This document shows positions 18,332 through 31,720 of a stretch of DNA of 64,000 nucleotides, piece after piece. The position numbers and the translations under genes are program-made. The notes beneath the pieces are model-generated. The model saw only the letters and a list, made by a program, of their open reading frames with translations. It had not been told where the DNA came from and made no database searches. Numbering within the stretch: the first letter of the stretch is position 1; each line of letters opens with the position of its first letter. Source of the DNA: Quadrisphaera granulorum (GTDB lineage: Bacteria > Actinomycetota > Actinomycetes > Actinomycetales > Quadrisphaeraceae); contig NZ_QGDQ01000001.1 in assembly GCF_003149145.1 (NCBI RefSeq), positions 124,001 to 188,000 of the forward strand. The letters run 5' to 3'.

Positions 18332-19948
18332 GTGCAGACGGCGCCTGCTCTCGAGGGGGCCGACGTGGCGATGACGCGGTGGGCGGACATCCGCCTGGGA
18401 GGCAAGCTCGCAGTCCTCGTGGCCGTGGGTGGACTGGCGACGGTCGCGATGGGCGGCTTCGCCGTGGCGGCGCTGCGCGACGTCGCCCGTGAGGTCGATG
18501 CCCTCAGCGCGAGCAACCACGCCACCCAGGAGGCGCTCGAAGCGGACATGATGCACGACGCCGTCCGCGGGGACCTGCTCCGCATGATCGTCACCAAGGA
18601 CGCCGCCGACCGCCAGGCCGCTGCCGCCGACCTCGCCGAGCACTCCAAGGCACTGAACGACCACCTGCAGGCCGTCGCTGACAGCGGGCTCAGCGCCGAC
18701 GTGACGGCCGCGGTCACCGCCGTCCGTCCCGACGTCGACGCCTACCTCAAGGCCGCTGCCGATGCCTCCGCCCTCGCCGTCGGCGACCCGGCCGCCGCTC
18801 TGGCCGCCTTCCCCGCCTTCCAGAAGGCCTTCAGCGCGCTCGAAGAGTCGATGCCGACCGTGGGTGACGCCGTCGACGCCGGTGTGGAGCAGACACGGGC
18901 AGGTGTTGCCGCCCAGTTCCGCACGGCCCTGGTCTCCCTGGCCACCACCGCCGCCATCTCCCTGGCGGTGTTAAGCGCGCTCGGCGTCGCCGTCACCCGG
19001 TCGGTCACCAGGCCGCTGCGCACCGTCACGGACGTGGTGACCGCGCTCGCGGACGGCGACCTCACCCGCAGCGCCGACCTGCACCGCGCCGACGAGCTCG
19101 GCGTCACCGCTGCCGCGCTGGATCGCGCGCTCGGCTCGCTGCGCACCGTGCTCTCCGGAGCCGCCGCACAGGCCGACGCCGTCGCCAGCGCCTCCGAGCA
19201 GCTGCGCGGCACGGCCGCTCAGCTGGCCGCTTCCTCGCAGGAGGCGAGCGCGCAGACGCGGTCGGTGGCGGACACGGTCGGGGAGGTCTCCTCGGGCGTG
19301 CGCACGGTGGCGGCCGGCGCCGACGAGATGGGCTCGGCGATCCGCGAGATCGCGCGCTCCACCGGCGAAGCGACGCGCGTGGCCAACACCGCTGTCGAGG
19401 CCGCCTCGACCGCCACGCAGACCGTCACCGGCCTGGGGGTTGCCAGTCGGGAGATCGGCGACGTCGTCAAGGCCATCACCTCCATCGCCGAGCAGACCAA
19501 CCTGCTCGCCCTCAACGCCACCATCGAGGCCGCTCGCGCCGGCGAGGCCGGCAAGGGCTTCGCGGTGGTGGCCGCCGAGGTCAAGGAGCTCGCCCGCGAG
19601 ACCGCCGCCGCCACGGAGAACGTCGCGCGGCGCGTGGAGACCATCCAGCAGGGCACCAGCGGTGCCGTCGCGGCCATCGCCGCGATCTCCGAGGTCATCC
19701 AGGAGATCTCAGCGCACCAGTCGACCATCGCCGCGGCGGTGGAGCAGCAGACGGCCACCACCCAGGAGATGTCGCGCTCCGCGGTGGAAGCCGCCGGTGG
19801 CGCCGACAGGATCGCCGCGAGCGCGGACTCGATGGCCGGTGCGGCCACCTCGACGAGCGCCGCGCTGGCGCAGACCCGCAGTGCTGTGGACGACCTGGCG
19901 GGCCGTGCCTCGGAGCTGCGCCGCGAGGTCGCGTCCTTCAGGTTCTAG
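18332..19948 (+). CDS. Methyl-accepting chemotaxis protein
   Basis: 538 residues; GTG at 18332 is supported by GGGGAGAGG 5-7 bases upstream. The order is TM1 (about 25-48), an extracytoplasmic helical sensor domain (about 50-200), TM2 (about 203-225), HAMP (about 226-280) and the cytoplasmic signalling domain, whose hairpin tip [18 protein letters not shown] (about 385-402) is intact. It should sense a ligand outside the cell and control CheA. No chemotaxis or flagellar genes are within the window, so its partners lie elsewhere. Confidence 0.92.
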
Positions 19949-19967: not shown

Positions 19968-21572
19968 CTAGGTTCTCGGTCCGACAGCGCGGCAGGCGAG
20001 CTGCAGTGCCAGGCGCTGCTCGTGGTCGTTCAGGCTGACGCCGAGGAGCCGTTCGATGCGGGCCACACGCTGGGCCGCGGTGTTGCGGTGGATGCCGAGG
20101 GTGGTCGCGGTCTCCGACAGTGACGATTCCGCGTCGAGGTAGACCCGCAGGGTCTGCACCAGCGAGGGGTCGGAGAGCAGGGGCTCCAGAAGACTGCGGG
20201 CCGCCGGCTCGAAGGTCTCCGTGCGGGTCCACGCGAGCAGCGTCTGGGCCACGCCCAGCTGGTCGACGTGGAGGAACCGTCCCTGCTCGGGGCGTCCGGC
20301 GGCCAGCAGAGCGGCGTCGGTGGCCTCCGAGAGCGTTCTCGCAATGCCTGCCGGTCCCTGGTGAGGTCTGCCGACCCCGGTGGCGCACCCGGTGATGTGG
20401 CGCAGTGCGTTGTGCAGACGCCGGAAGCGCTCCGCCAGGTGCCGCACCTCCACGGCGCTGGGAGACCTGTCGCTGCTCCACCAGCCGCTCCAGCCGTCAC
20501 CGTGCTCGGCCACCACCAGCTGCAGGCCGGCCTCTGAGGCGCACCTCAGCGCCTCGTGGCGCAGGCCCGCGACGTCGGTGGTGTTCCCGGTGCGGACCCG
20601 TACGCCCACGTGCCAGCCGGCCATCGGCCAGCCGGCTGCCGCGGCGCGCTGGCGCAGCTCGGGGCTGGGTTCGCCGGTGAGCCTGAGCACGTCGGTGAGC
20701 AGTGCGGCGCGGCCGCGGGCGTCGCGCTCCACCGCGGTGCGGTCGGCAGCGAGCCATCCGGCGACGGCGGTGCTGGCCGCGGCCAGCACATCGTCGGTGA
20801 CGACGACGGCGGACGTCGGCACGCGGGCCACGAGCCATCGCTGCACGCTGCGCAGTCCGGGGAGGAGCCCGGCGAGCAGTACCGGCCGCGCGACCGTGGT
20901 CTCGCCAGTGGTCGCGTTGCCGGCCCCGTCGGAGCCGCGTTCGCGCTGGGGCACCGGCGTGTCGGGTCTCGGCACCACCAGGGACGGGTCTCCGTGCAGC
21001 ACCGCACCGGAGGCGTCCGTCAGTGCCACGGGCACCGCGAGCAGCTGGGAGCACAGGTCGACGAGCGGACCGGGGGCGGTGACCCTCCCCTCGGCGACGG
21101 CGCGCGAGACGGTCAGCACCGCCCGTGCCGCGGCGACCTCGGGAGCTGCGAGGTGCACCGCAGCGGACGCCGCCAGGTCGAGCAGCGGCCCGCCGGCCCC
21201 CACGACGCACAGGTCAAGGCGGGTGCACAGCAGCCGGGTGGGGCCCGGCAGCGGCTCGGTGCCCGCGAGGAGCGCGGCCCGGGCACCGGCATCGGCAGCA
21301 CGGCGCAGCACGGCGTCCAGGCGCCACGCCGGCGCCGTGCGCCACGAGGGCCCGGCCAGCACCACCAGCGCGTCGACCGCCGCAGCGGTACCCAGCTCAT
21401 CGGGGGAGTCGAGCAGGACGACTCTGCTCAGCGGCACTCCCGCGGGGTCACCCGCGAGCACCACCGCACTGCGCCACTCCGGCAGCGCCCTGACCGAGGC
21501 GAGCGAAGGGCCCACCGCCGGGCCGGTCACCGCACCGGGCCCGGCAAAGGACCCAGCAAGCGACCCGGTCAC
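19968..21572 (-). CDS. PucR/CdaR-type transcriptional regulator
   Basis: 534 residues; the GTG at 21572 overlaps the previous stop as GTGA. The N-terminal half is Ala/Leu-rich and resembles the purine-catabolism regulator domain. The C-terminal helix-turn-helix (about 475-530; LRVYLDAESSLSETATTLGIHRNTAAQRVARIERLLG) is the PucR C-terminal domain, shown here in part only. Regulators of this class control purine, allantoin and amino-acid catabolism. As last gene of the permease-hydantoinase-DUF917 operon it probably controls that operon and is itself made in proportion to it. The dyad at 28128-28144 is a candidate binding site. Confidence 0.85.
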   Translation of the reverse strand: MTGSLAGSFAGPGAVTGPAVGPSLASVRALPEWRSAVVLAGDPAGVPLSRVVLLDSPDELGTAAAVDALVVLAGPSWRTAPAWRLDAVLRRAADAGARAALLAGTEPLPGPTRLLCTRLDLCVVGAGGPLLDLAASAAVHLAAPEVAAARAVLTVSRAVAEGRVTAPGPLVDLCSQLLAVPVALTDASGAVLHGDPSLVVPRPDTPVPQRERGSDGAGNATTGETTVARPVLLAGLLPGLRSVQRWLVARVPTSAVVVTDDVLAAASTAVAGWLAADRTAVERDARGRAALLTDVLRLTGEPSPELRQRAAAAGWPMAGWHVGVRVRTGNTTDVAGLRHEALRCASEAGLQLVVAEHGDGWSGWWSSDRSPSAVEVRHLAERFRRLHNALRHITGCATGVGRPHQGPAGIARTLSEATDAALLAAGRPEQGRFLHVDQLGVAQTLLAWTRTETFEPAARSLLEPLLSDPSLVQTLRVYLDAESSLSETATTLGIHRNTAAQRVARIERLLGVSLNDHEQRLALQLACRAVGPRT

Positions 21573-22681
21573 CACGCAGCCCCGGCGGGCTGCGCCACGA
21601 GCACCGGGTCGACGTCGAGACCGAACGACCGCGGCATCACCCGGCCGACGTGCTCGGGCCTGGCCCAGAAGGCGGGCGCGGGGAGCTGCAGCACGACGAC
21701 GTCGTCGCCGCGGCGGATCCTGTCGCACGCGACGACGCGCGCCGTGCGCCGCTCCACCACCACGAGCAGGTCGGGAGCGGTGGCCACCGGGGCGCCGTCT
21801 TCGAAGACCACGAGGTACTCGTTCTCCATCTCCAGCCGCAGCAGCGCGCTGGTCTGCTGGTCGCGCACGCACACCGAGCCCCGCCCGAAGCCCGCCCCCG
21901 CGTGCCGGGCCACCTCCACCACCCTGCCGGCGCCGAGCAGCCGGGCGCCCAGCGCTGCCACGACGTCGTCGGGAGACGCCGACGTCCCCAGCGCCTCCAG
22001 CCGTGCGCCCAGCTCCAGGCAGCGCCGCGTGGCGCGCACCGGACCTTCGAGGCTCCAGTCCTCGCGGACCACGGGCGCGGTGGCCAGCGCGGCCCAACCG
22101 CCCTCGGCGGCCAGCACCGCGCGCACCACACGCTCGCAGCGCACGGCGTCACCGCCGTCCACGAGCACCACCTGCCCTCGGGGCAGCGCCAACGCCAGAG
22201 GGGGTAGCGCACCGTCCACCACGGCCAGCGAGAACTGGTCGAGCCGCGGCAGGGCACGTCCGCACAGGTCGACGTCCACCACGGGAAGGTCGCACCACAC
22301 CGCCGTGGCCAGCGCTGTCACGCCGTTGAGCCCGGCCGCCTCGATGGAGGCGAGTGCGGTGGCGCTCCGCCTGCTCCACCGCTCGATGGCGCGCAGCGCC
22401 CGGGCGAACTCCCCACCGCCGGCCAGCTCCTCGGTGAAGGCGCTCGCGGCGCCCACCATCCCGACGAAGGACACGGCGAGGTGGGTGGCGCCGTCGGGAT
22501 CGAGCAGCCGGACGTACCCGTCACCGACGGCGTGACCGAACATCAGCCCGGCCGGGCGGGCGTCGCCGCCCCCGCCGGACCCGAGCACGTCCGCGCCGCG
22601 CACCAGCGCGGGGACGTCCGCTGCCGTGACCCTGCGGAGGTCCCACACGTCATCGGGGGGCGAGCCGTGCACGGGGAACAC
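21569..22681 (-). CDS. DUF917 protein, divergent paralogue 3
   Basis: 370 residues, GTG start at 22681. The overall fold matches the two DUF917 neighbours, but every conserved motif is altered: GSGGGGDARP for GTGGGGDPxIG, VGMVGAASAF for MMGAPTVMVEKI, AAGLNGVTAL for the (E)xGGxNS motif, and DLCGRALPRL for DGMGRAFPEL. The C-terminal half (RLEMENEYLVVFEDG) is better kept. DUF917 is, from memory, now linked to S-methyl-thiohydantoin desulfurase. This copy may be a non-catalytic partner or have changed specificity. It is translationally coupled to the regulator that follows. Confidence 0.8.
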   Translation of the reverse strand: MFPVHGSPPDDVWDLRRVTAADVPALVRGADVLGSGGGGDARPAGLMFGHAVGDGYVRLLDPDGATHLAVSFVGMVGAASAFTEELAGGGEFARALRAIERWSRRSATALASIEAAGLNGVTALATAVWCDLPVVDVDLCGRALPRLDQFSLAVVDGALPPLALALPRGQVVLVDGGDAVRCERVVRAVLAAEGGWAALATAPVVREDWSLEGPVRATRRCLELGARLEALGTSASPDDVVAALGARLLGAGRVVEVARHAGAGFGRGSVCVRDQQTSALLRLEMENEYLVVFEDGAPVATAPDLLVVVERRTARVVACDRIRRGDDVVVLQLPAPAFWARPEHVGRVMPRSFGLDVDPVLVAQPAGAAW

Positions 22682-22732
22682 CCTGGCACCGCACGCCCCC
22701 CGAGAGCGGTGAGGCCGACGTCAGGCGCCCGC

Positions 22733-23854
22733 TCAGACAGCCACGGGCTCGGAGAACCGCTCGGACACGAGCTCCTCCACCGGCACGAACGGCTGCTCCA
22801 GACCGAACGCGGCAGGACCGAACACCGCGAGGGCCTCCGGCGTCCGCATGATCGGCGGGGTGGAGATGCCGAGCACCACCACGCGCTGCCCGTAGCGCAG
22901 GGACTCCGTGGTGATGGGCTCGGCGGAGGTGTCGTCCAGCACGCAGATGAGGTCGGGCACCACGCACACGGGCTCGCCGTCGCGCAGGGCCAGCAGGTGC
23001 TCGTTCTGGAAGCGCAGCTCCAGCTCACCACCGTCGAAGCCGGCGACGGTGCACCCGCCGCGGGTGAAGCCGCCGACGGTGCGCCGCTCGACGTCGCTGA
23101 CCTTGCCGCGGAACAGCGGCCGCACGTTCTGGTAGATGGTCCCGGCGAAGAACTCGGCGAGCGCCGCGAACGGGTCCCGGTGCTCCTCGCGGGCCTCCCG
23201 GATGGCGCGGCCCGCGCCGATGCCCAGCGACAGGGTGCGCGGGATGGCCACGCGCTTCACGTCCGCCCCCGTCATCGCGTACTCGGCGATGAGCGCCGCG
23301 CCACCGAACTGGATGGCGCAGGCGCGGGAGAGGCGCTCCATGCGCACGTCGTCGTCGCCGGTGTCGACGATGACGGTCTCGTGGCGGTCACCGGCGACCA
23401 CCATGGGGGAGGCGTGCACCCCGTAGACGCTGAACGTCTCCATCTGCAGCTCGGGGAAGGCGCGGCCCATCCCGTCGGCGTCGATGATCGGCAGCCCTGC
23501 GCGGGCCGCCACGAGCAGCGGGATCATCGAGTTCAGTCCGCCGCACTCGATGGGCATCGTGGCCTGCGCCGTACGGCCCAGGTGCGCCTCGAGGGTGCGC
23601 AGGGCCAGCACCGGCTCGGTGCCGCGCGGAATCTTCTCCACCATGACGGTGGGGGCGCCCATCATCGCGGTGGGAATGACGAAGAGGTCGTCGTCCACCT
23701 CGTCGGGGTCGAGCACGGTGATCGGGCCGTGCTCCTTGATGGCCTCCGCGACGAGAAGGCGGCCGATGTACGGGTCGCCCCCGCCGCCGGTGCCGAGCAG
23801 GGTGGCGCCGCGTGAGAGGTCGGCCAGGTGGGACTCGTCGAGCAGCCAGCTCAT
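22733..23854 (-). CDS. DUF917 protein, paralogue 2
   Basis: 373 residues; ATG at 23854 overlaps the previous stop by 4 bases. The family motifs are intact: LGTGGGGDPYIG near the N-terminus, MMGAPTVMVEKIP, ECGGLNSMIPLL, DADGMGRAFPELQMETF, and a C-terminal half with DVERRTVGGFTRG and RFQNEHLLAL. DUF917 proteins usually sit beside HyuA-type hydantoinases, as here. The likely role is a step in breakdown of a cyclic amide or thiohydantoin-like substrate, in the cytosol (no signal peptide). The exact reaction is not evident from sequence. Confidence 0.85.
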   Translation of the reverse strand: MSWLLDESHLADLSRGATLLGTGGGGDPYIGRLLVAEAIKEHGPITVLDPDEVDDDLFVIPTAMMGAPTVMVEKIPRGTEPVLALRTLEAHLGRTAQATMPIECGGLNSMIPLLVAARAGLPIIDADGMGRAFPELQMETFSVYGVHASPMVVAGDRHETVIVDTGDDDVRMERLSRACAIQFGGAALIAEYAMTGADVKRVAIPRTLSLGIGAGRAIREAREEHRDPFAALAEFFAGTIYQNVRPLFRGKVSDVERRTVGGFTRGGCTVAGFDGGELELRFQNEHLLALRDGEPVCVVPDLICVLDDTSAEPITTESLRYGQRVVVLGISTPPIMRTPEALAVFGPAAFGLEQPFVPVEELVSERFSEPVAV

Positions 23855-24978
23855 GCGGAGACTCCTTCGAGGAGGACGGCATCGTCGGGGTAGCCGAACG
23901 CGGAGGGGCCGGCCAGCGCCAAGCCCTCCGGGCTACGCCAGCGCGGGTCGCAGGGGGCGACGATCACGCTGACGCGGTGGCCGAAGCGGAGCTGCTCCGT
24001 GGTGATCGCCGCGCCCGTGGCGGTGTCGAGCAGGCAGATGAGGTCGGGGGCGGTGGCGATCACGCGTTCGCCGTCGTCGTCCCTGTCCGCAGGGCGGTCG
24101 CGGACGAGGAGGTTCTCGTTCTGGAAGTCGATGGTGAGCGTGCGCCCCACGTCGCAGCCGGAGCCTTCGAGGACCGCGGTGCCGCGAGCGAAGCCCGTGG
24201 TGGTGCGCCGCTCGACGTCGATCACCTTGGCCCGGGCCAGCACGCGGCCGCCCAGGTGCTCGGCGACGGCGGCCGCCGGGTCGTCTCCGGCAGCGCCGGG
24301 CTCCAGCAGATCACCGAGGGACGCGGCCAGCGAGAGCGTCCCGGGGACGAGGCCGCGGCGGGCTGCGGCGCCGTCCATGGCGTAGTTGGAGATCATCGCC
24401 GAGCAGCCCATGTCGATGGTGACCGAGCGGGCCAAGCGCTCGGCCCAGCGGTTGTCGACGGTGTCGAGCACCGCGCAGTTGCCCTTCTCGTCCACCACGG
24501 ACATGGGGGTGGCCCGGACCCCGGTCAGCGTGAGCAGCACCTGCTGCAGCTCGGGGAAGGCGCGGCCCATGCCGTCGCCGTCCACCAGCGGCAGGCCCAG
24601 CTCCGCGGCCGCGGCCACCGGGACCAGGGAGTTGACCCCTCCGGCCTCGATGCACGCGACGTGCGTGACGCCCAGGCCGAGGTGCCGAGTGAGGGCCTCG
24701 ACGGCGCGGCCGACCTGGTCTGCCGAGGGGATCTTCTCCACCATGACCGTGGGGGCGCCCATCATCGCCACGGGCAGCACCACGGCGTCGTCAGGGAGCT
24801 CGGCCAGCGGTGTCAGGGCCACGGGACCGTAGGCGCGGATGGCCGCGGCGGCCATGAGGGCACCGATGTGCGGGTCGCCGCCTCCGCCGGTGCCGAGGAC
24901 GGCGGCGCCGCGGGAGATGGCGCGGACCTCCGCCAGCCCCACCTCCCGCAGCTGCCGTGGTGCCGTGGCCGCGCTCAT
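23851..24978 (-). CDS. DUF917 protein, paralogue 1
   Basis: 375 residues; ATG at 24978 overlaps the hydantoinase stop by 4 bases. It is close to paralogue 2 in all motifs (GTGGGGDPHIG, MMGAPTVMVEKIP, EAGGVNSLVPV, DGDGMGRAFPELQQVLL, DVERRTTTGFARG, DFQNENLLVRD). Translational coupling to HyuA suggests the two proteins form a complex or act in sequence. Having two motif-intact copies in one operon may mean a hetero-oligomer. Reaction uncertain, as for the other copies. Confidence 0.85.
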   Translation of the reverse strand: MSAATAPRQLREVGLAEVRAISRGAAVLGTGGGGDPHIGALMAAAAIRAYGPVALTPLAELPDDAVVLPVAMMGAPTVMVEKIPSADQVGRAVEALTRHLGLGVTHVACIEAGGVNSLVPVAAAAELGLPLVDGDGMGRAFPELQQVLLTLTGVRATPMSVVDEKGNCAVLDTVDNRWAERLARSVTIDMGCSAMISNYAMDGAAARRGLVPGTLSLAASLGDLLEPGAAGDDPAAAVAEHLGGRVLARAKVIDVERRTTTGFARGTAVLEGSGCDVGRTLTIDFQNENLLVRDRPADRDDDGERVIATAPDLICLLDTATGAAITTEQLRFGHRVSVIVAPCDPRWRSPEGLALAGPSAFGYPDDAVLLEGVSA

Positions 24979-26576
24979 GCCCGGGACCCCACCGGCAGCG
25001 GCTCGCGCAGGTCGACCGACGAACGGGCGGTCAGGGACAGGTCACCCACGGCCTTGACCCGAATCCGCGTGGCGCCGCCGGGCAGGTAGGGCAGCGGCAC
25101 CTCGTCGATCTCGAGCACCTCGACGCTCGACGGGACGGCACCGTTGGAGATGGCGCGCTCGACGGCCTCGGCGCGCGCAGCCTCGAGCACGTCGCCGCGC
25201 CGACCCGGCTCGATGGTGAAGACCCTGTCGACCTCCCCGCCGACCTGCGCGATGGCGGCGCCGATGGCGTTGGCCACCGCGAAGTTCTCCGGGCGGAGCA
25301 CCTCGCCGCTGCCGGGGAGATGCTCCGGCAGCAGCACCGACCCGCCGCCCACGGCCACGACCGGTAGCGGCTGGGAGGAGGTGCGCATCCGGTCCACCGC
25401 GTCGGCGACATCGGCCGCGATCCGCGCGAGGGCGGCAGCCACGAGCTCCTTGTCGAGGTGCGCGACCCGGGCGCGGTCGCCGATGTCGGCGCGGCCGGCG
25501 GCCACGGCGATGTCGGTGGCGGTGAGGGTGTCACCGCCGAAGACCAGCGCCCGCTCGGTGAGGCGGTAGCCCACCGAGTCCGGACCCACGGTGGCCGAGG
25601 AGCCGGCGCCGCGGACCAGCGAGCCGCCGCCGATGCCGATGGAGAGCACGTCGGGCATCCGGAAGTTGGTCCGGATCCCGGCCACCGACACCTCGGTGGT
25701 CGCCTCGCGGGGAAAGCCGCGGGTCAGGACGCCGACGTCCGACGTCGTCCCGCCGACGTCGACGACGGCGCACGTCGTGACGCCCGACAGCACCGCGGCG
25801 CCGCGCATGGAGTTGGTCGGGCCGGAGGCGAACGTGGAGACGGGGTAGCGGCGGGCGTGCTCGACGTCCATGAGCGTGCCGTCGTTCTGGCTGAGGTAGA
25901 TCGGCGCGTCGATGCCGGCGCCCGCCACCGCGGCGAACAGGCCACCGACGATGTCGGAGGCGAGCTCGCGGAGAGCGGCGTTGACGATGGTGGCGTTCTC
26001 GCGTTCCAGCAGGCCGATCCGCCCGATCTGGTGCGACAGGGAGATCGCGACGTCGGGCAGTTCCTCGGCCAGCACCTCCGCCGCGCGCAGCTCGAACTCC
26101 GTGTTGACCGGAGAGAACACCGACGTGATGGCCACGCTGCGCACGCCGTGCGCGGCCATGTCGGCGGCGTGGCGGCGCAGCTCGTCGGGGTCGAGCTCGG
26201 AGATGGTCCGTCCGTCGAACTCGTGGCCGCCGTGCGCCAGGTAGGAGCGACCGGAGACCGCCTCCACGAGCCGCTGCGGCCAGTCGACCATCGGCGGCAG
26301 AGCCGCCGTGGCCGGCAGCCCGAGGCGCAGCGCGGCCGTCGGGGCGAGGCGCCGCGCCTCGACGAGGGCGTTGATGAAGTGCGTGGTGCCGATCATCACC
26401 GCCTTGACGCCAGCAGGGTCGAACGCCCGCTGGTCCTGTAGCGCGCCCAGGGAGGCGGTGATGCCGCTGGACACGTCAGAGGTGGTGGGGCTCTTGACGG
26501 CCGCCAGCACGCTGTCGTCGTCGCCCAGGAGGACGGCGTCGGTATTGGTGCCGCCGACGTCGATGCCGATGCGCAT
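24975..26576 (-). CDS. Hydantoinase/oxoprolinase family protein (HyuA type)
   Basis: 533 residues from ATG. An actin/hexokinase-like fold is shown by GIDVGGTNTDAVLL (residues 4-17), IGTTHFINALVEARRL, SQNDGTLM, FASGPTNSMRGAA and VVDVGGTTSDVGVL. HyuA proteins hydrolyse cyclic amides such as 5-oxoproline or N-methylhydantoin at the cost of ATP, usually with a HyuB subunit. No HyuB is encoded here; the DUF917 proteins occupy its place in the operon. It follows the permease after 33 bases and overlaps the first DUF917 gene by 4. Confidence 0.88.
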   Translation of the reverse strand: MRIGIDVGGTNTDAVLLGDDDSVLAAVKSPTTSDVSSGITASLGALQDQRAFDPAGVKAVMIGTTHFINALVEARRLAPTAALRLGLPATAALPPMVDWPQRLVEAVSGRSYLAHGGHEFDGRTISELDPDELRRHAADMAAHGVRSVAITSVFSPVNTEFELRAAEVLAEELPDVAISLSHQIGRIGLLERENATIVNAALRELASDIVGGLFAAVAGAGIDAPIYLSQNDGTLMDVEHARRYPVSTFASGPTNSMRGAAVLSGVTTCAVVDVGGTTSDVGVLTRGFPREATTEVSVAGIRTNFRMPDVLSIGIGGGSLVRGAGSSATVGPDSVGYRLTERALVFGGDTLTATDIAVAAGRADIGDRARVAHLDKELVAAALARIAADVADAVDRMRTSSQPLPVVAVGGGSVLLPEHLPGSGEVLRPENFAVANAIGAAIAQVGGEVDRVFTIEPGRRGDVLEAARAEAVERAISNGAVPSSVEVLEIDEVPLPYLPGGATRIRVKAVGDLSLTARSSVDLREPLPVGSRA

Positions 26577-26609
26577 GCCAGGTCTCCTCGTGCCGTGGGT
26601 GCGGGGTGC

Positions 26610-28028
26610 TCAGCGCGCCGAGGACGGCGCGGTGCTGCTCGGGCTGGTCGGGCTGGTCGGCCCACTGGCGGGAGCGGTGGCACCGCGAGCGTCGGTCAGG
26701 TCGATGACGTCGGCTGAGGCGTCCGTGGTGCGAGACAGGCCCACTTCGCGCAGCAAGCCGGCCTTGCCGGCCACCACGTACAGCACGAAGGCGATGACGA
26801 GGGAGTTGATGGAGCCCAGACCCACGGTGAGGAAGTAGCCGCTCACCGAGGCGATCGCCCACACTGCGAGGGTGGCGGGCACCCAGGTGGGGGAGCTGGC
26901 GGGGACGGCGCCGCCGTTGGCGCGGGAGGCCTCAAGCTCGCCGCGCCAGCGCTTCACCACGAAGTACTCGGCCACCATGATCCCCGCGACCGGCGGGAAC
27001 ACGACGCCCAGGATGATGAGGAAGTCGGTGAACTTCGTGAGGATGCCGGCCGCCGCAAGGAGACTGCCGACCAGGCCCAGCAGCCCCGTGACGAGAGCGC
27101 GGTTGATGGTGCGGCCGGTGAGGGTGCCGATGAAGTTCACCACCGCGAGGCCCGCGGAGTAGAGGTTCCAGTCATTGATCTTCACGGTGCCCAGGAGGAC
27201 GACGAGCACGGCCACCCAGCCCACCGATGACGTGAGGATAGCGGTGATGTCGCTGGAGCCGATGGCGTGGGCGAGCAGCACGCCCGACATGCCGATGAGG
27301 TACTCACCGATGGTGAAGCCGACCACCGTCTGCTTCACGACGTCCGAGGAGCTCCGGTTGTAGCGGGACATGTCCGGCGTGATGACCGCACCGACGATGA
27401 AGCCGCCCGCCACGAGGGTGGTGCCGGTGGCCAGGTCGATCTGCGGGCCCGGGGGAGCGGACGCCATGAGGGCGGTGACGTCGGTCTTCGAAAGCTCGCT
27501 GATGATTGCCCACCCGACGAGGACGAGGAAGGCCGGCACGGTGAGGTAGGCCGTCCACGCCATCGAGCCGAAGCCGAAGACGCAGATGGCCGTGACCACC
27601 AGGCCGAAGACGATGGACCAGCCCCAGACGGGCAGGACGCCGACGGTGGACGCGAGGCCCTGGGCGGAGACGGCGGACTGCACGCCAAACCAGCCGATGA
27701 GACTCATCCCGATGGCGAGACCCATGAGTGCCGAGCCGCCGCGGCCGAACCCGAGCCACCGGGCGATCAGTGAGGTGGACATGCCCTCCTTGCACCCGAT
27801 GATGCCGACAAAGATCGACACCACCTCGAGGATGACGGCGCCGAGGGTGAACGCCAGGAATGCCTGCCAGAAGCCCATGCCGAACCCGAGGGCGGCTCCG
27901 AGGAGGAACTGGCTCAGTGCGGACACCTGCCCGAACCGCTGAACCGCCACCGAGAACCACGAGTAGCGGGCCTCCAGGGGCACCCGTCCCATCGCGTAGT
28001 CGTCAACTCCGTGCACACCACCAGCCAC
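26610..28028 (-). CDS. NCS1-type cytosine/purine/hydantoin permease
   Basis: 472 residues; GTG at 28028 follows AGGAGG at 7 bases. About 12 hydrophobic segments; the RYSWFSVAVQRFGQVSALSQF start, GCKEGMSTSLIARWLGFG, ITPDMSRYNRSSSDVVKQT and GVVFPPVAGIMVAEYFVVKRW are typical of nucleobase:cation symporter-1 transporters (CodB-like). It is the first gene of the catabolic operon and probably brings in its substrate, for which a purine-derived or hydantoin-like heterocycle is the best guess. The C-terminal 45 residues are a Ser/Thr/Pro-rich tail. Confidence 0.88.
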   Translation of the reverse strand: MAGGVHGVDDYAMGRVPLEARYSWFSVAVQRFGQVSALSQFLLGAALGFGMGFWQAFLAFTLGAVILEVVSIFVGIIGCKEGMSTSLIARWLGFGRGGSALMGLAIGMSLIGWFGVQSAVSAQGLASTVGVLPVWGWSIVFGLVVTAICVFGFGSMAWTAYLTVPAFLVLVGWAIISELSKTDVTALMASAPPGPQIDLATGTTLVAGGFIVGAVITPDMSRYNRSSSDVVKQTVVGFTIGEYLIGMSGVLLAHAIGSSDITAILTSSVGWVAVLVVLLGTVKINDWNLYSAGLAVVNFIGTLTGRTINRALVTGLLGLVGSLLAAAGILTKFTDFLIILGVVFPPVAGIMVAEYFVVKRWRGELEASRANGGAVPASSPTWVPATLAVWAIASVSGYFLTVGLGSINSLVIAFVLYVVAGKAGLLREVGLSRTTDASADVIDLTDARGATAPASGPTSPTSPSSTAPSSAR

Positions 28029-28127
28029 GGCCCTGCCTCCTTCTCCACCGTTCGAGCGATGGAGCGAGAACGTAGGGTCAGGCGGCGTGAGCGTCAGTGG
28101 ATGACGTGCACGGTTCGCCGTTGAGAT

Positions 28128-29968: not shown

Positions 29969-31720
29969 GTGTTCACCTCTCGCAGAGCCCCAGCCGCTCT
30001 TGCCGTCCTCGCAGGCGGCGCCCTGCTCATCTCCGGATGTTCCGCCGATCGTGGAGGAAGCTCCAGCGACGCCAGTGGGAGCGCGGGTGCCACCGGCCCG
30101 AGCAACGCGACGATCACCGTGGCGCACGAGCAGGAGTTCAACGCCTACAACAACAACACGGCGGACCAGAACGCCGTGCAGAACTCTGTCGTGCTCAACA
30201 ACGTGCTCGACGGCTTCTGGGACTTCGGGCCCGATGGTGGGCTGCGTAACAACACCGAGTTCGGCACCTTCGAGAAGACGAGCGACGACCCGCTGACCGT
30301 CAAGTACACGATCAACGACAAGGCCGTCTGGTCCGACGGTGAGCCCATCGACTGCGACGACATCGTGCTCACCTGGGCCGCCAACTCCGGCAAGTTCGCC
30401 AGCCAGGAGACGGACGAGAACGGCAACCCGCTCTCGGGCTTCTCCTCCGCCTCGACGAGCGGCTACGAGGACATGAACTTCCCCGAGTGCAACGCCGGGG
30501 ACAAGACGGTCACCGTCACCTACACCAAGACCTTTGCCGACTGGGCCAGCGCGTTTGGCATCAATCCGAACATCATGCCCGCGCACATCGTGGCGAAGAA
30601 CGCAGGCGTTTCCGACCTCATCGGCGCTCTGAAGAACAACACTGCCGACCAGGTGGCCGCGCTGGCGAAGTTCTACAACACCGGTTTCATCGGCAACCCC
30701 GGCACCGTGGACAAGGCCAACTGGGTCTCCTCCGGCCCGTACCTGATCGATTCCTGGCAGGCGGGGCAGTCGATCACCCTCAAGGCCAACCCGAAGTGGT
30801 GGGGCACCCCCGCCAAGACGGGCACGATCGTCATCCGGTTCATCGACGCCACGGCCCAGGCCCAGGCTCTGGCCAACGGTGAGATCCAGGTGGCGCGACC
30901 GCAGCCCGCCGCTGACATCCTCAAGCAGCTGCAGGCCATCAATCCGCCGGTCAAGATCGACCAGGGTGACGAGTACACGTTCGAGCACCTGGACTTCAAC
31001 TTCCAGGGCGAGTTCAAGGACGCGAACCTGCGCAAGGCGTTCGCCCTGTGCGTGCCGCGCCAGCAGATCGTCGACAACCTGATCAAGCCGGTCAACGAGA
31101 ACGCGACCGTGCTGAACTCCCGCTACAAGCTGGCGTTCCAGGAGGGCTACCAGGGCGTGGTCCAGGCCTCCTACAGCGGACAGTACGACCAGCCGAACAT
31201 CGAGCAGGCCAAGCAGCTGCTGGGCGGCAAGACGGGCGTCACCGTGCGCATCGGCTACCAGACCCCCAACCAGCGCCGCACCAACGCCGTCTCCCTCATC
31301 AAGGCCTCCTGCGACCAGGCCGGCTTCAACGTCCAGGACGCAGGCCAGGAAGACTTCTTCGGCAACGGCCTCGCCGCCGGTAACTTCGACGTGGCGCTCT
31401 TCGCCTGGTCGGGCTCGCCGCTGGTCTCCGGCAACGCCTCGACGTACATCACCGGCGGCGGCAACAACAACGGCAAGTACTCCAACCCCCAGGTCGACCA
31501 GCTGACCGCGACCCTGCTCACGCAGACCGACACGGCCCAGCAGGACCAGACCATCGGGCAGATCGAGAAGATCCTCTGGGACGACCTGGCCACCATCCCG
31601 ATCTTCACCTTCCCCGGTGTCCAGGCCAACGACACCAAGGTGAGCGGACCCGCGTTCCAGCCGGCGCAGAGCCAGCAGACGTGGAACGACAACGAGTGGG
31701 CGGTCGCGCAGCAGTCGTGA
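29969..31720 (+). CDS. ABC transporter substrate-binding lipoprotein, family 5
   Basis: 583 residues from GTG. The lipobox LLISGC puts the lipidated Cys at residue 24, so the mature protein is anchored outside the membrane. The SBP_bac_5 pattern of peptide/nickel-type importers follows: YTINDKAVWSDGEPIDCDDIV, VSSGPYLIDSW, LRKAFALCVPRQQIVDNLI. It heads a five-gene importer operon. The 186-base region before it carries a TTGACA box (29858-29863) but no convincing -10. The ligand is probably an oligopeptide, but other solutes are taken by this family. Confidence 0.9.
   Translation: MFTSRRAPAALAVLAGGALLISGCSADRGGSSSDASGSAGATGPSNATITVAHEQEFNAYNNNTADQNAVQNSVVLNNVLDGFWDFGPDGGLRNNTEFGTFEKTSDDPLTVKYTINDKAVWSDGEPIDCDDIVLTWAANSGKFASQETDENGNPLSGFSSASTSGYEDMNFPECNAGDKTVTVTYTKTFADWASAFGINPNIMPAHIVAKNAGVSDLIGALKNNTADQVAALAKFYNTGFIGNPGTVDKANWVSSGPYLIDSWQAGQSITLKANPKWWGTPAKTGTIVIRFIDATAQAQALANGEIQVARPQPAADILKQLQAINPPVKIDQGDEYTFEHLDFNFQGEFKDANLRKAFALCVPRQQIVDNLIKPVNENATVLNSRYKLAFQEGYQGVVQASYSGQYDQPNIEQAKQLLGGKTGVTVRIGYQTPNQRRTNAVSLIKASCDQAGFNVQDAGQEDFFGNGLAAGNFDVALFAWSGSPLVSGNASTYITGGGNNNGKYSNPQVDQLTATLLTQTDTAQQDQTIGQIEKILWDDLATIPIFTFPGVQANDTKVSGPAFQPAQSQQTWNDNEWAVAQQS

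Follow-up and report, generated by a model that had tools for sequence, protein, structure and literature searches.

The question raised by this locus is how a hydantoinase-type HyuA protein works in an operon that encodes no HyuB, its usual partner, and carries three genes for DUF917 proteins instead. The operon lies in a stretch of 64,000 nucleotides from Quadrisphaera granulorum (hereafter the window, in which all coordinates are given), where it occupies 19968-28028 on the minus strand. In the order of transcription, it encodes a CodB-like NCS1 permease, HyuA, DUF917 proteins A, B, and C, and a PucR regulator. From comparisons at the sequence level, the operon may import a small cyclic amide or ureide and open its ring with an ATP-dependent enzyme made of a short HyuA and the DUF917 proteins. 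We hold this reading at about even confidence. The features are as follows.

26610..28028, minus strand: NCS1 (CodB-like) permease, probable importer, GTG start at 28028 (PF02133, E = 4.5e-17)
28036..28042, minus strand: Shine-Dalgarno-like AAGGAGG ahead of the permease GTG at 28028 (read in the sequence)
24975..26576, minus strand: short HyuA, 533 aa, ASKHA ATPase subunit (PF05378, 9.3e-37; PF01968, 2.6e-30)
23851..24978, minus strand: DUF917/S-Me-THD protein A, orthologue group A (PF06032, 3.9e-55; PF20906, 1.1e-60)
22733..23854, minus strand: DUF917/S-Me-THD protein B (PF06032, 8.9e-58; PF20906, 9.1e-65)
21569..22681, minus strand: DUF917/S-Me-THD protein C, fast-evolving paralogue (PF06032, 2.2e-36; PF20906, 1.1e-34)
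19968..21572, minus strand: PucR-type regulator (GGDEF-like and PucR HTH), last gene of the operon (PF13556, 5.8e-21; PF17853, 1.5e-15)

The six genes given in the preliminary description were confirmed, all on the minus strand, by the sequence and by Pfam. The same description had the last five genes joined mostly by 4-base overlaps; this holds for three of their four junctions (three of five in the whole operon), namely HyuA/A, A/B, and C/PucR, where the PucR GTG at 21572 lies over the stop of C. The permease and HyuA genes are 33 bp apart, and the gap between B and C is 51 bp if C starts at the GTG at 22681. A promoter scan and a terminator scan gave one match each, both within the permease gene.

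Conservation of the operon was assessed by a HyuA scan of 84,980 species, each represented by a single genome; the best 80 of at least 551 confirmed relatives were fetched (loci of 18.8 kb on average), and their neighborhoods were mapped with profiles built from the window genes. DUF917 genes were typed by the best BLAST score against the three window proteins; for distant loci (e.g., L117, L118, L120, L121, and L004, the strain's own copy on contig C25) the letter denotes the nearest match only, and the tree described below places some of them elsewhere. A-B-C was present in at least 53 of the 81 loci (the 80 and the window), always in that order and with HyuA ahead. This number is a minimum because contig ends truncate some loci and others seem to have split or frameshifted frames (L053, L082, and L087). 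The other sets were A-C (seven loci), A-B (seven), B-C (three), B-A (three), A only (five), B only (two), and C-A (one); C was the sole DUF917 in none of the 81. The permease was found in 68 of the 80 fetched loci, six of the 12 without it being cut near HyuA, and PucR in 74. Against two congeners, C gave the highest pairwise dN/dS, 0.23-0.28, and the other five genes gave 0.10-0.21; by these values (0.10-0.28), all six genes look to be under purifying selection. All-against-all clustering of the non-core ORFs of at least 90 aa in the locus set revealed no extra gene travelling with the operon across genera: the two large clusters (59 and 23 loci) are antisense to hyuA and to the permease gene, and all others cover nine loci or fewer. 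From the constant gene set, a multi-subunit A-B-C enzyme is plausible.

The preliminary description had noted the absence of HyuB. A profile made from the four HyuB proteins of this genome found no HyuB in the window or in the 80 fetched loci. The profile detected its positive controls on the other contigs of the genome, beside the long HyuAs of L040-L044, and in the annotated HyuBs of L155 and L163. Comparison of the neighborhoods, which had been proposed as a check, thus found both the operon and its lack of HyuB conserved across loci. Among 56 genomes chosen for this type of HyuA, HyuB was present in 26 (one of them counted twice, as G240 and G687 are the same match) and had no match in 30. 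At least 11 of the 30 have A-B-C: G120 (one contig, 100% complete), G106, G162, G192, and the genomes of L068, L081, L085, L096, L099, L105, and L109. The 30 include Microbacterium testaceum. The absence is real, but the surprise at it was partly misplaced because it is common in this HyuA subfamily.

By its domain content, the window HyuA is a distinct short type. It has Hydant_A_N and positions 1-211 of the 291 of the Hydantoinase_A profile, and PF19278 (Hydant_A_C) is missing. The short HyuAs of Amycolatopsis, Rhizobium, Lactiplantibacillus, Haloferax, Listeria, and Sodalis likewise match Hydantoinase_A to position 173-210 and have no Hydant_A_C. Hydant_A_C was matched in all three of the long HyuAs scanned from this genome (one partially) versus none of seven short HyuAs, and the window protein is 129-181 aa shorter than those three. 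The phosphate motifs are retained, P1 (DxGGTxTD, with Asp6) in 82 and P2 (DxGGT, with Asp273) in 81 of 82 HyuA ORFs, and K28 is present in 100% of the 82 aligned rows. An AlphaFold model of HyuA (33-sequence alignment, pLDDT 87.1) matched caprolactamase CapA (6yra) with residues 1-515 at Z 28.6 and an rmsd of 3.7 over 499 residues, the matched part of CapA being residues 6-613 of its 691 modelled ones. The matches to acetophenone carboxylase (5l9w, residues 1-515, Z 28.8) and acetone carboxylase (5svc, residues 1-516, Z 25.1) were about equal to it.

The HyuA fold and both phosphate motifs are thus shared with HyuAB enzymes, such as CapAB (6yra), N-methylhydantoinase (7hk5/9h03), and 5-oxoprolinase. 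Extracts of PMC8453981 describe the phosphate motifs for CapA and propose for CapAB that the lactam is activated by the A subunit at the expense of ATP and then opened at the metal site of B; by analogy, an ATP-driven opening of a cyclic amide may be expected here too. The window HyuA differs from these enzymes in having neither Hydant_A_C nor the adenosine motif GxxPGP. DUF917 genes stand where HyuB stands in HyuAB operons, and the linked HyuB with its Asp-His-Asp-His metal site, a trait of those enzymes, is missing.

A, B, and C each carry PF06032 and PF20906 with E-values from 1.1e-34 to 9.1e-65 and scores of 119.9-218 bits (Pfam cut-offs, 27 bits). These two domains are common to S-methyl-thiohydantoin and thiohydantoin desulfurases (NF058532 and NF058529). 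In contrast to the desulfurases, the window proteins are coupled to HyuA, occur as three paralogues, and fall far under the equivalog cut-offs. Against NF058532 (cut-off 450), A, B, and C scored 87.7, 96.4, and 62.4 bits; against NF058529 (cut-off 440), 66.1, 71.8, and 51.0 bits. An AlphaFold model of B (pLDDT 95.3) gave one clear match in the PDB, CV_3147 (2o3i; Z 41.6, 27% identity over 341 residues), which is named a hypothetical protein and shares the DUF917 fold; no other match of the B model exceeded Z 5.0. The weak matches were cobalamin biosynthesis proteins (3by5, Z 5.0; 2w6l, Z 4.2), which may share just a common arrangement. HyuB-type and carboxylase partner subunits were absent from the structural matches of the B model, an absence that excludes nothing. 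Eight residues are invariant in 54 aligned DUF917 members (in B numbering, Asp125, Asp127, Gly130, Arg131, Gly215, Glu285, Pro300, and Gly351). C retains the core: its aligned Asp-x-Asp and Gly-Arg and three Glu positions are conserved at 98-100%. Many sites that hardly vary in A and B are, however, relaxed in C.

A DUF917 tree of 132 rows, made with a quick method and SH-aLRT support only and with several forks open, placed A, B, and C on separate branches. The kin of A include proteins of Mesorhizobium and Qingshengfaniella, and those of B include proteins of Rhizobium-type plasmids, Haloferax, and deep Actinomycetota; among the 132 rows, the C branch had no member outside Actinomycetota. 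C is the most diverged and probably an auxiliary member of A-B-C, the auxiliary role being our inference. In a phylum sample of 396 genomes, this one included, DUF917 occurred in 18, and HyuA was adjacent in 16 of these. The other two were G574, where the contig is fragmented, and G038. The HyuA query matched 121 plasmid records and the DUF917 query 123, with nearly identical host lists. The A-B-C triple is the actinobacterial version of a widespread HyuA-DUF917 pair.

The permease scored 166.2 bits against the NCBIfam cytosine permease model, under its cut-off of 326, and passed the Pfam cut-off of the wider family; its single match among PDB sequences at E ≤ 0.01 was cytosine permease 7qoa (E = 1.2e-30). 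The CodB-related NCS1 permease, together with the accessory genes of relatives, points to a role in breaking down a small cyclic amide or nitrogen heterocycle. Our guess for the substrate is a ring resembling hydantoin, dihydropyrimidine, or oxopurine. Of the substrates named in the preliminary description, the thiohydantoin found no support (51-96 bits versus cut-offs of 440-450, and none of the 396 genomes of the phylum sample at the NF058529 cut-off). The breakdown of a cyclic amide is plausible overall, given the racemase, M20, and nitrilase-family amidase genes beside a minority of the relatives.

The pathway could run in four steps. The NCS1 permease would bring the compound in, and HyuA would activate the ring amide with ATP, probably as an O-phospho-iminol, as proposed for CapA and 5-oxoprolinase. 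A DUF917 protein would then put water on the activated carbon and so open the ring, which is the job of the HyuB metal site in HyuAB enzymes, and PucR would regulate the operon genes. Complex formation, phosphorylation, and the ring-opening role of DUF917 are what we infer here. More specifically, and tentatively, the phospho-iminol made by the short HyuA may receive water from DUF917 in the way that the desulfurase relatives add it at the S-methyl-imidate carbon of S-methyl-thiohydantoin, with A-B-C forming a hetero-oligomer; we regard this version as possible but doubtful. If it is true, the DUF917 family shares one chemistry, in which an activated ring C=N carbon is hydrolysed and the leaving group is sulfur or phosphate. 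HyuA-DUF917 would then be another architecture of ATP-driven cyclic-amide enzymes besides HyuAB. The genes for short HyuA and DUF917 are annotated as "hydantoinase/oxoprolinase family" and "DUF917" in many bacteria and haloarchaea, plasmids included; if the pair is one HyuB-independent enzyme, the "hydantoinase" entries among them acquire a partner protein, and a common chemistry would be suggested for a family in which the only solved relative found here (2o3i) is labelled a hypothetical protein. In that case, culturable strains that have no HyuB but a self-contained operon of transporter, enzyme, and regulator offer a concrete test set.

Several points weigh against the preferred reading. 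The characterised DUF917 proteins, going by their NCBIfam names, remove sulfur and are not known to open rings. GxxPGP occurs in one of the 82 HyuA ORFs, and ATP use could differ in the 81 without it; at the aligned columns, the five long HyuAs of this genome have PGP. As noted, 26 of the 56 genomes with this type of HyuA do have HyuB. A HyuA-HyuB pair adjoins HyuA-DUF917 in G391, G402, G500, G303 (cut by the end of the fetched stretch), and Ketogulonicigenium (loci L222, L224, L225, L230, and L163), and in Novosphingobium HyuB lies about 5 kb from HyuA-DUF917. DUF917 therefore need not stand in for HyuB; such side-by-side systems are better explained by a joint complex or by two enzymes acting in succession than by a simple replacement. 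The accessory genes occur in a minority of loci, which are not independent of one another, and point to mixed substrates, with peptide-type transporters as well as NCS1. Their queries were taken from genes already near the operons, so the counts show association and not a rate. Because importers differ by lineage, different operons may have different substrates.

The same evidence bears on four other explanations. A, B, and C could be desulfurases of an ergothioneine-type thiohydantoin, with HyuA opening the resulting hydantoin. The family is named for S-methyl-thiohydantoin desulfurase in Pfam and NCBIfam, and one relative, L153, has OsmC and a Cds1 homologue (572 bits, cut-off 600) in its operon. 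However, the three proteins score at 51-96 bits where 440-450 are called for, no genome of the phylum sample reaches the NF058529 cut-off, and the nearest (G038, 254.9 bits) has no adjacent HyuA. This genome has one urocanase-family gene (no search for ergothionase itself was made), and Cds1 was found in one of 126 loci. The score gap and the phylum sample led us to reject desulfuration as the leading reading, and we consider it improbable. We give a similarly low probability to the short HyuA being served by a HyuB encoded elsewhere, with the DUF917 proteins as extra enzymes of the pathway. The four HyuB genes of this genome (on contigs C25 and C7), the 26 HyuB-positive genomes, and the adjoining or nearby HyuB genes of G500, G391, G402, G303, Ketogulonicigenium, and Novosphingobium would suit it; the 30 HyuB-free genomes, among them the complete G120 with its full A-B-C, and the lack in the short HyuA of the Hydant_A_C domain present in long HyuAs speak against it. 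A need for HyuB in trans, by which the preliminary description would have been overturned, thus fails at the level of the family and was rejected there; for this strain it was not, since four HyuB genes lie on other contigs.

The hydrolysis of cyclic dipeptides (diketopiperazines) or related cyclic peptides by HyuA-DUF917 is suggested by family-5 (peptide-type) ABC binding proteins, M20, M19, and M24 peptidases, AroM, and OPT beside relatives. It is also suggested by extracts of PMC11055893, which report that cyclodipeptide-oxidase clusters lacking a cyclodipeptide synthase are enriched in genes for DUF917, hydantoin-racemase-like, and AroM proteins. An NCS1 permease, however, is present in the window operon and in 68 of the 80 fetched loci, and the only queried peptidase families within 6 kb among the 80 loci were M20 (L075) and M19 (L121); we find this explanation unlikely, though deserving of some weight. 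A family-5 ABC binding protein (SBP_bac_5) does lie upstream of the window operon (29969-31720). It was dropped as a cyclic-peptide link and is not counted as part of the operon because it is on the opposite strand, behind two unrelated genes, and as a query had no match within 6 kb at other loci. Lastly, the system may be no hydrolase at all, and phosphorylation of the substrate by HyuA may serve an ATP-dependent carboxylation or some other transfer, on the model of acetone and acetophenone carboxylases. The HyuA model resembles 5l9w and 5svc about as well as CapA, but the M20, nitrilase-family, and racemase genes of some relatives fit ring opening better. This counterargument is a weak one; even so, we think a transferase role very improbable.

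In the open-licence literature, no experimental description of the HyuA-DUF917 pair and no mention of "thiohydantoin desulfurase" was found. Among the titles and abstracts listed on ergothioneine, diketopiperazines, caprolactamase, allantoin and oxamate, and hydantoinase operons with PucR or a permease, none dealt with such an enzyme, and extracts of PMC13081902, PMC11633122, PMC4617892, PMC8305020, PMC4016543, PMC3852281, and PMC13405746 had no bearing on the pair. DUF917 (also as PF06032 or COG3535) is merely named there in tables and text, apart from a proposal in PMC11055893. On the basis of sequence and structure, the extracts of that source suggest the opening of hydantoin-like rings by DUF917 proteins, which they describe as uncharacterised. 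Extracts of PMC7513527 list a hydantoinase, a DUF917 protein, and a cytosine permease of Lactobacillus rhamnosus with consecutive accession numbers. In the hcpR/nitrosative-stress table of PMC12915319, as excerpted, a permease, a DUF917 protein, and a hydantoinase of Clostridioides difficile (locus tags 1615-1617) change expression together (1.69, 1.18, and 1.18).

Beyond Actinomycetota, the arrangement varies. Listeria and Lactiplantibacillus have PucR - cytosine permease - DUF917 - HyuA, and Sodalis has permease - DUF917 - HyuA. These groups comprise the protein families of the window, with no HyuB in the stretches read; they differ in having a single DUF917 that is ahead of HyuA and outside the A, B, and C branches. 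A single DUF917 is also found in the Planococcus and Arsenophonus examples. Plasmids of Rhizobium, Aminobacter, and Aureimonas carry racemase - ABC transporter - HyuA - DUF917 - DUF917 - LuxR. Their HyuA is 58-60% identical to that of the window, and their DUF917 copies fall within the wider B branch; unlike the window, they have two DUF917 genes and an ABC importer and racemase in place of NCS1. A Haloferax plasmid has three, as DUF917 - HyuA - DUF917 - DUF917, preceded by an ABC importer whose binding protein belongs to family 5.

Accessory genes were counted within 6 kb of HyuA in 126 loci by single-sequence searches; a few matches are fragments at locus ends, and domains were checked for some. 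The counts are minima because of this search type (the family-5 protein of L136 was missed). The Asp/Glu/hydantoin racemase family and M20 amidohydrolases were each found in nine loci, and family-5 ABC binding proteins in eight (nine with the unlinked one of the window); none of the three occurred in 606 kb further off. The molybdenum hydroxylase large subunit was present in four loci, with five ORFs near versus one far, a weaker link. The nitrilase-family amidase was found in two loci.

Some individual loci deserve mention. In the actinobacterial variants L108, L116, and L072 (also L092 and L120), HyuA-DUF917 has a xanthine/uracil permease, a MoaA-like protein, or subunits of a molybdenum hydroxylase nearby, suggesting that the ring may first be oxidised to a lactam. 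In L153:6577-14847, a plasmid of Streptomycetaceae NBC_01309, the OsmC gene and the Cds1 (cysteine desulfhydrase) homologue stand between the two DUF917 genes of the operon. This hints at a ring that contains sulfur or derives from cysteine, possibly 2-oxothiazolidine-4-carboxylate, which is a substrate of 5-oxoprolinase. A short-chain dehydrogenase gene lies between B and C in Amycolatopsis and Actinocrispum (L045 and L069 by Pfam; L046, L049, L059, and L064 by similarity). L161 and L163 have DUF917-HyuA with AroM and M20, L161 also with a racemase and OPT, in partial agreement with the cyclodipeptide-oxidase cluster genes in the extracts of PMC11055893. In L223 (G038), the desulfurase-like DUF917 without HyuA is beside an OPT transporter and an AroM-like protein (194 bits, cut-off 198).

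On contig C25 of this genome (L125:11469-15494 and L126), a second HyuA-like/DUF917/PucR group lies among three HyuA-HyuB pairs within about 25 kb; its HyuA-like gene has no Pfam match at 1e-5, and its DUF917 scores 96.5 bits. Six records named as Listeria or Enterococcus phages (H141-H145) have a relative of the window HyuA (about 48% identity in the five shown), which is unannotated and possibly host DNA in the assemblies. A methyl-accepting chemotaxis protein adjoins the operon in the window (18332-19948), and another (L125:99-1685) lies about 11 kb from the C25 DUF917 gene; chemotaxis towards the substrate of the window operon is possible.

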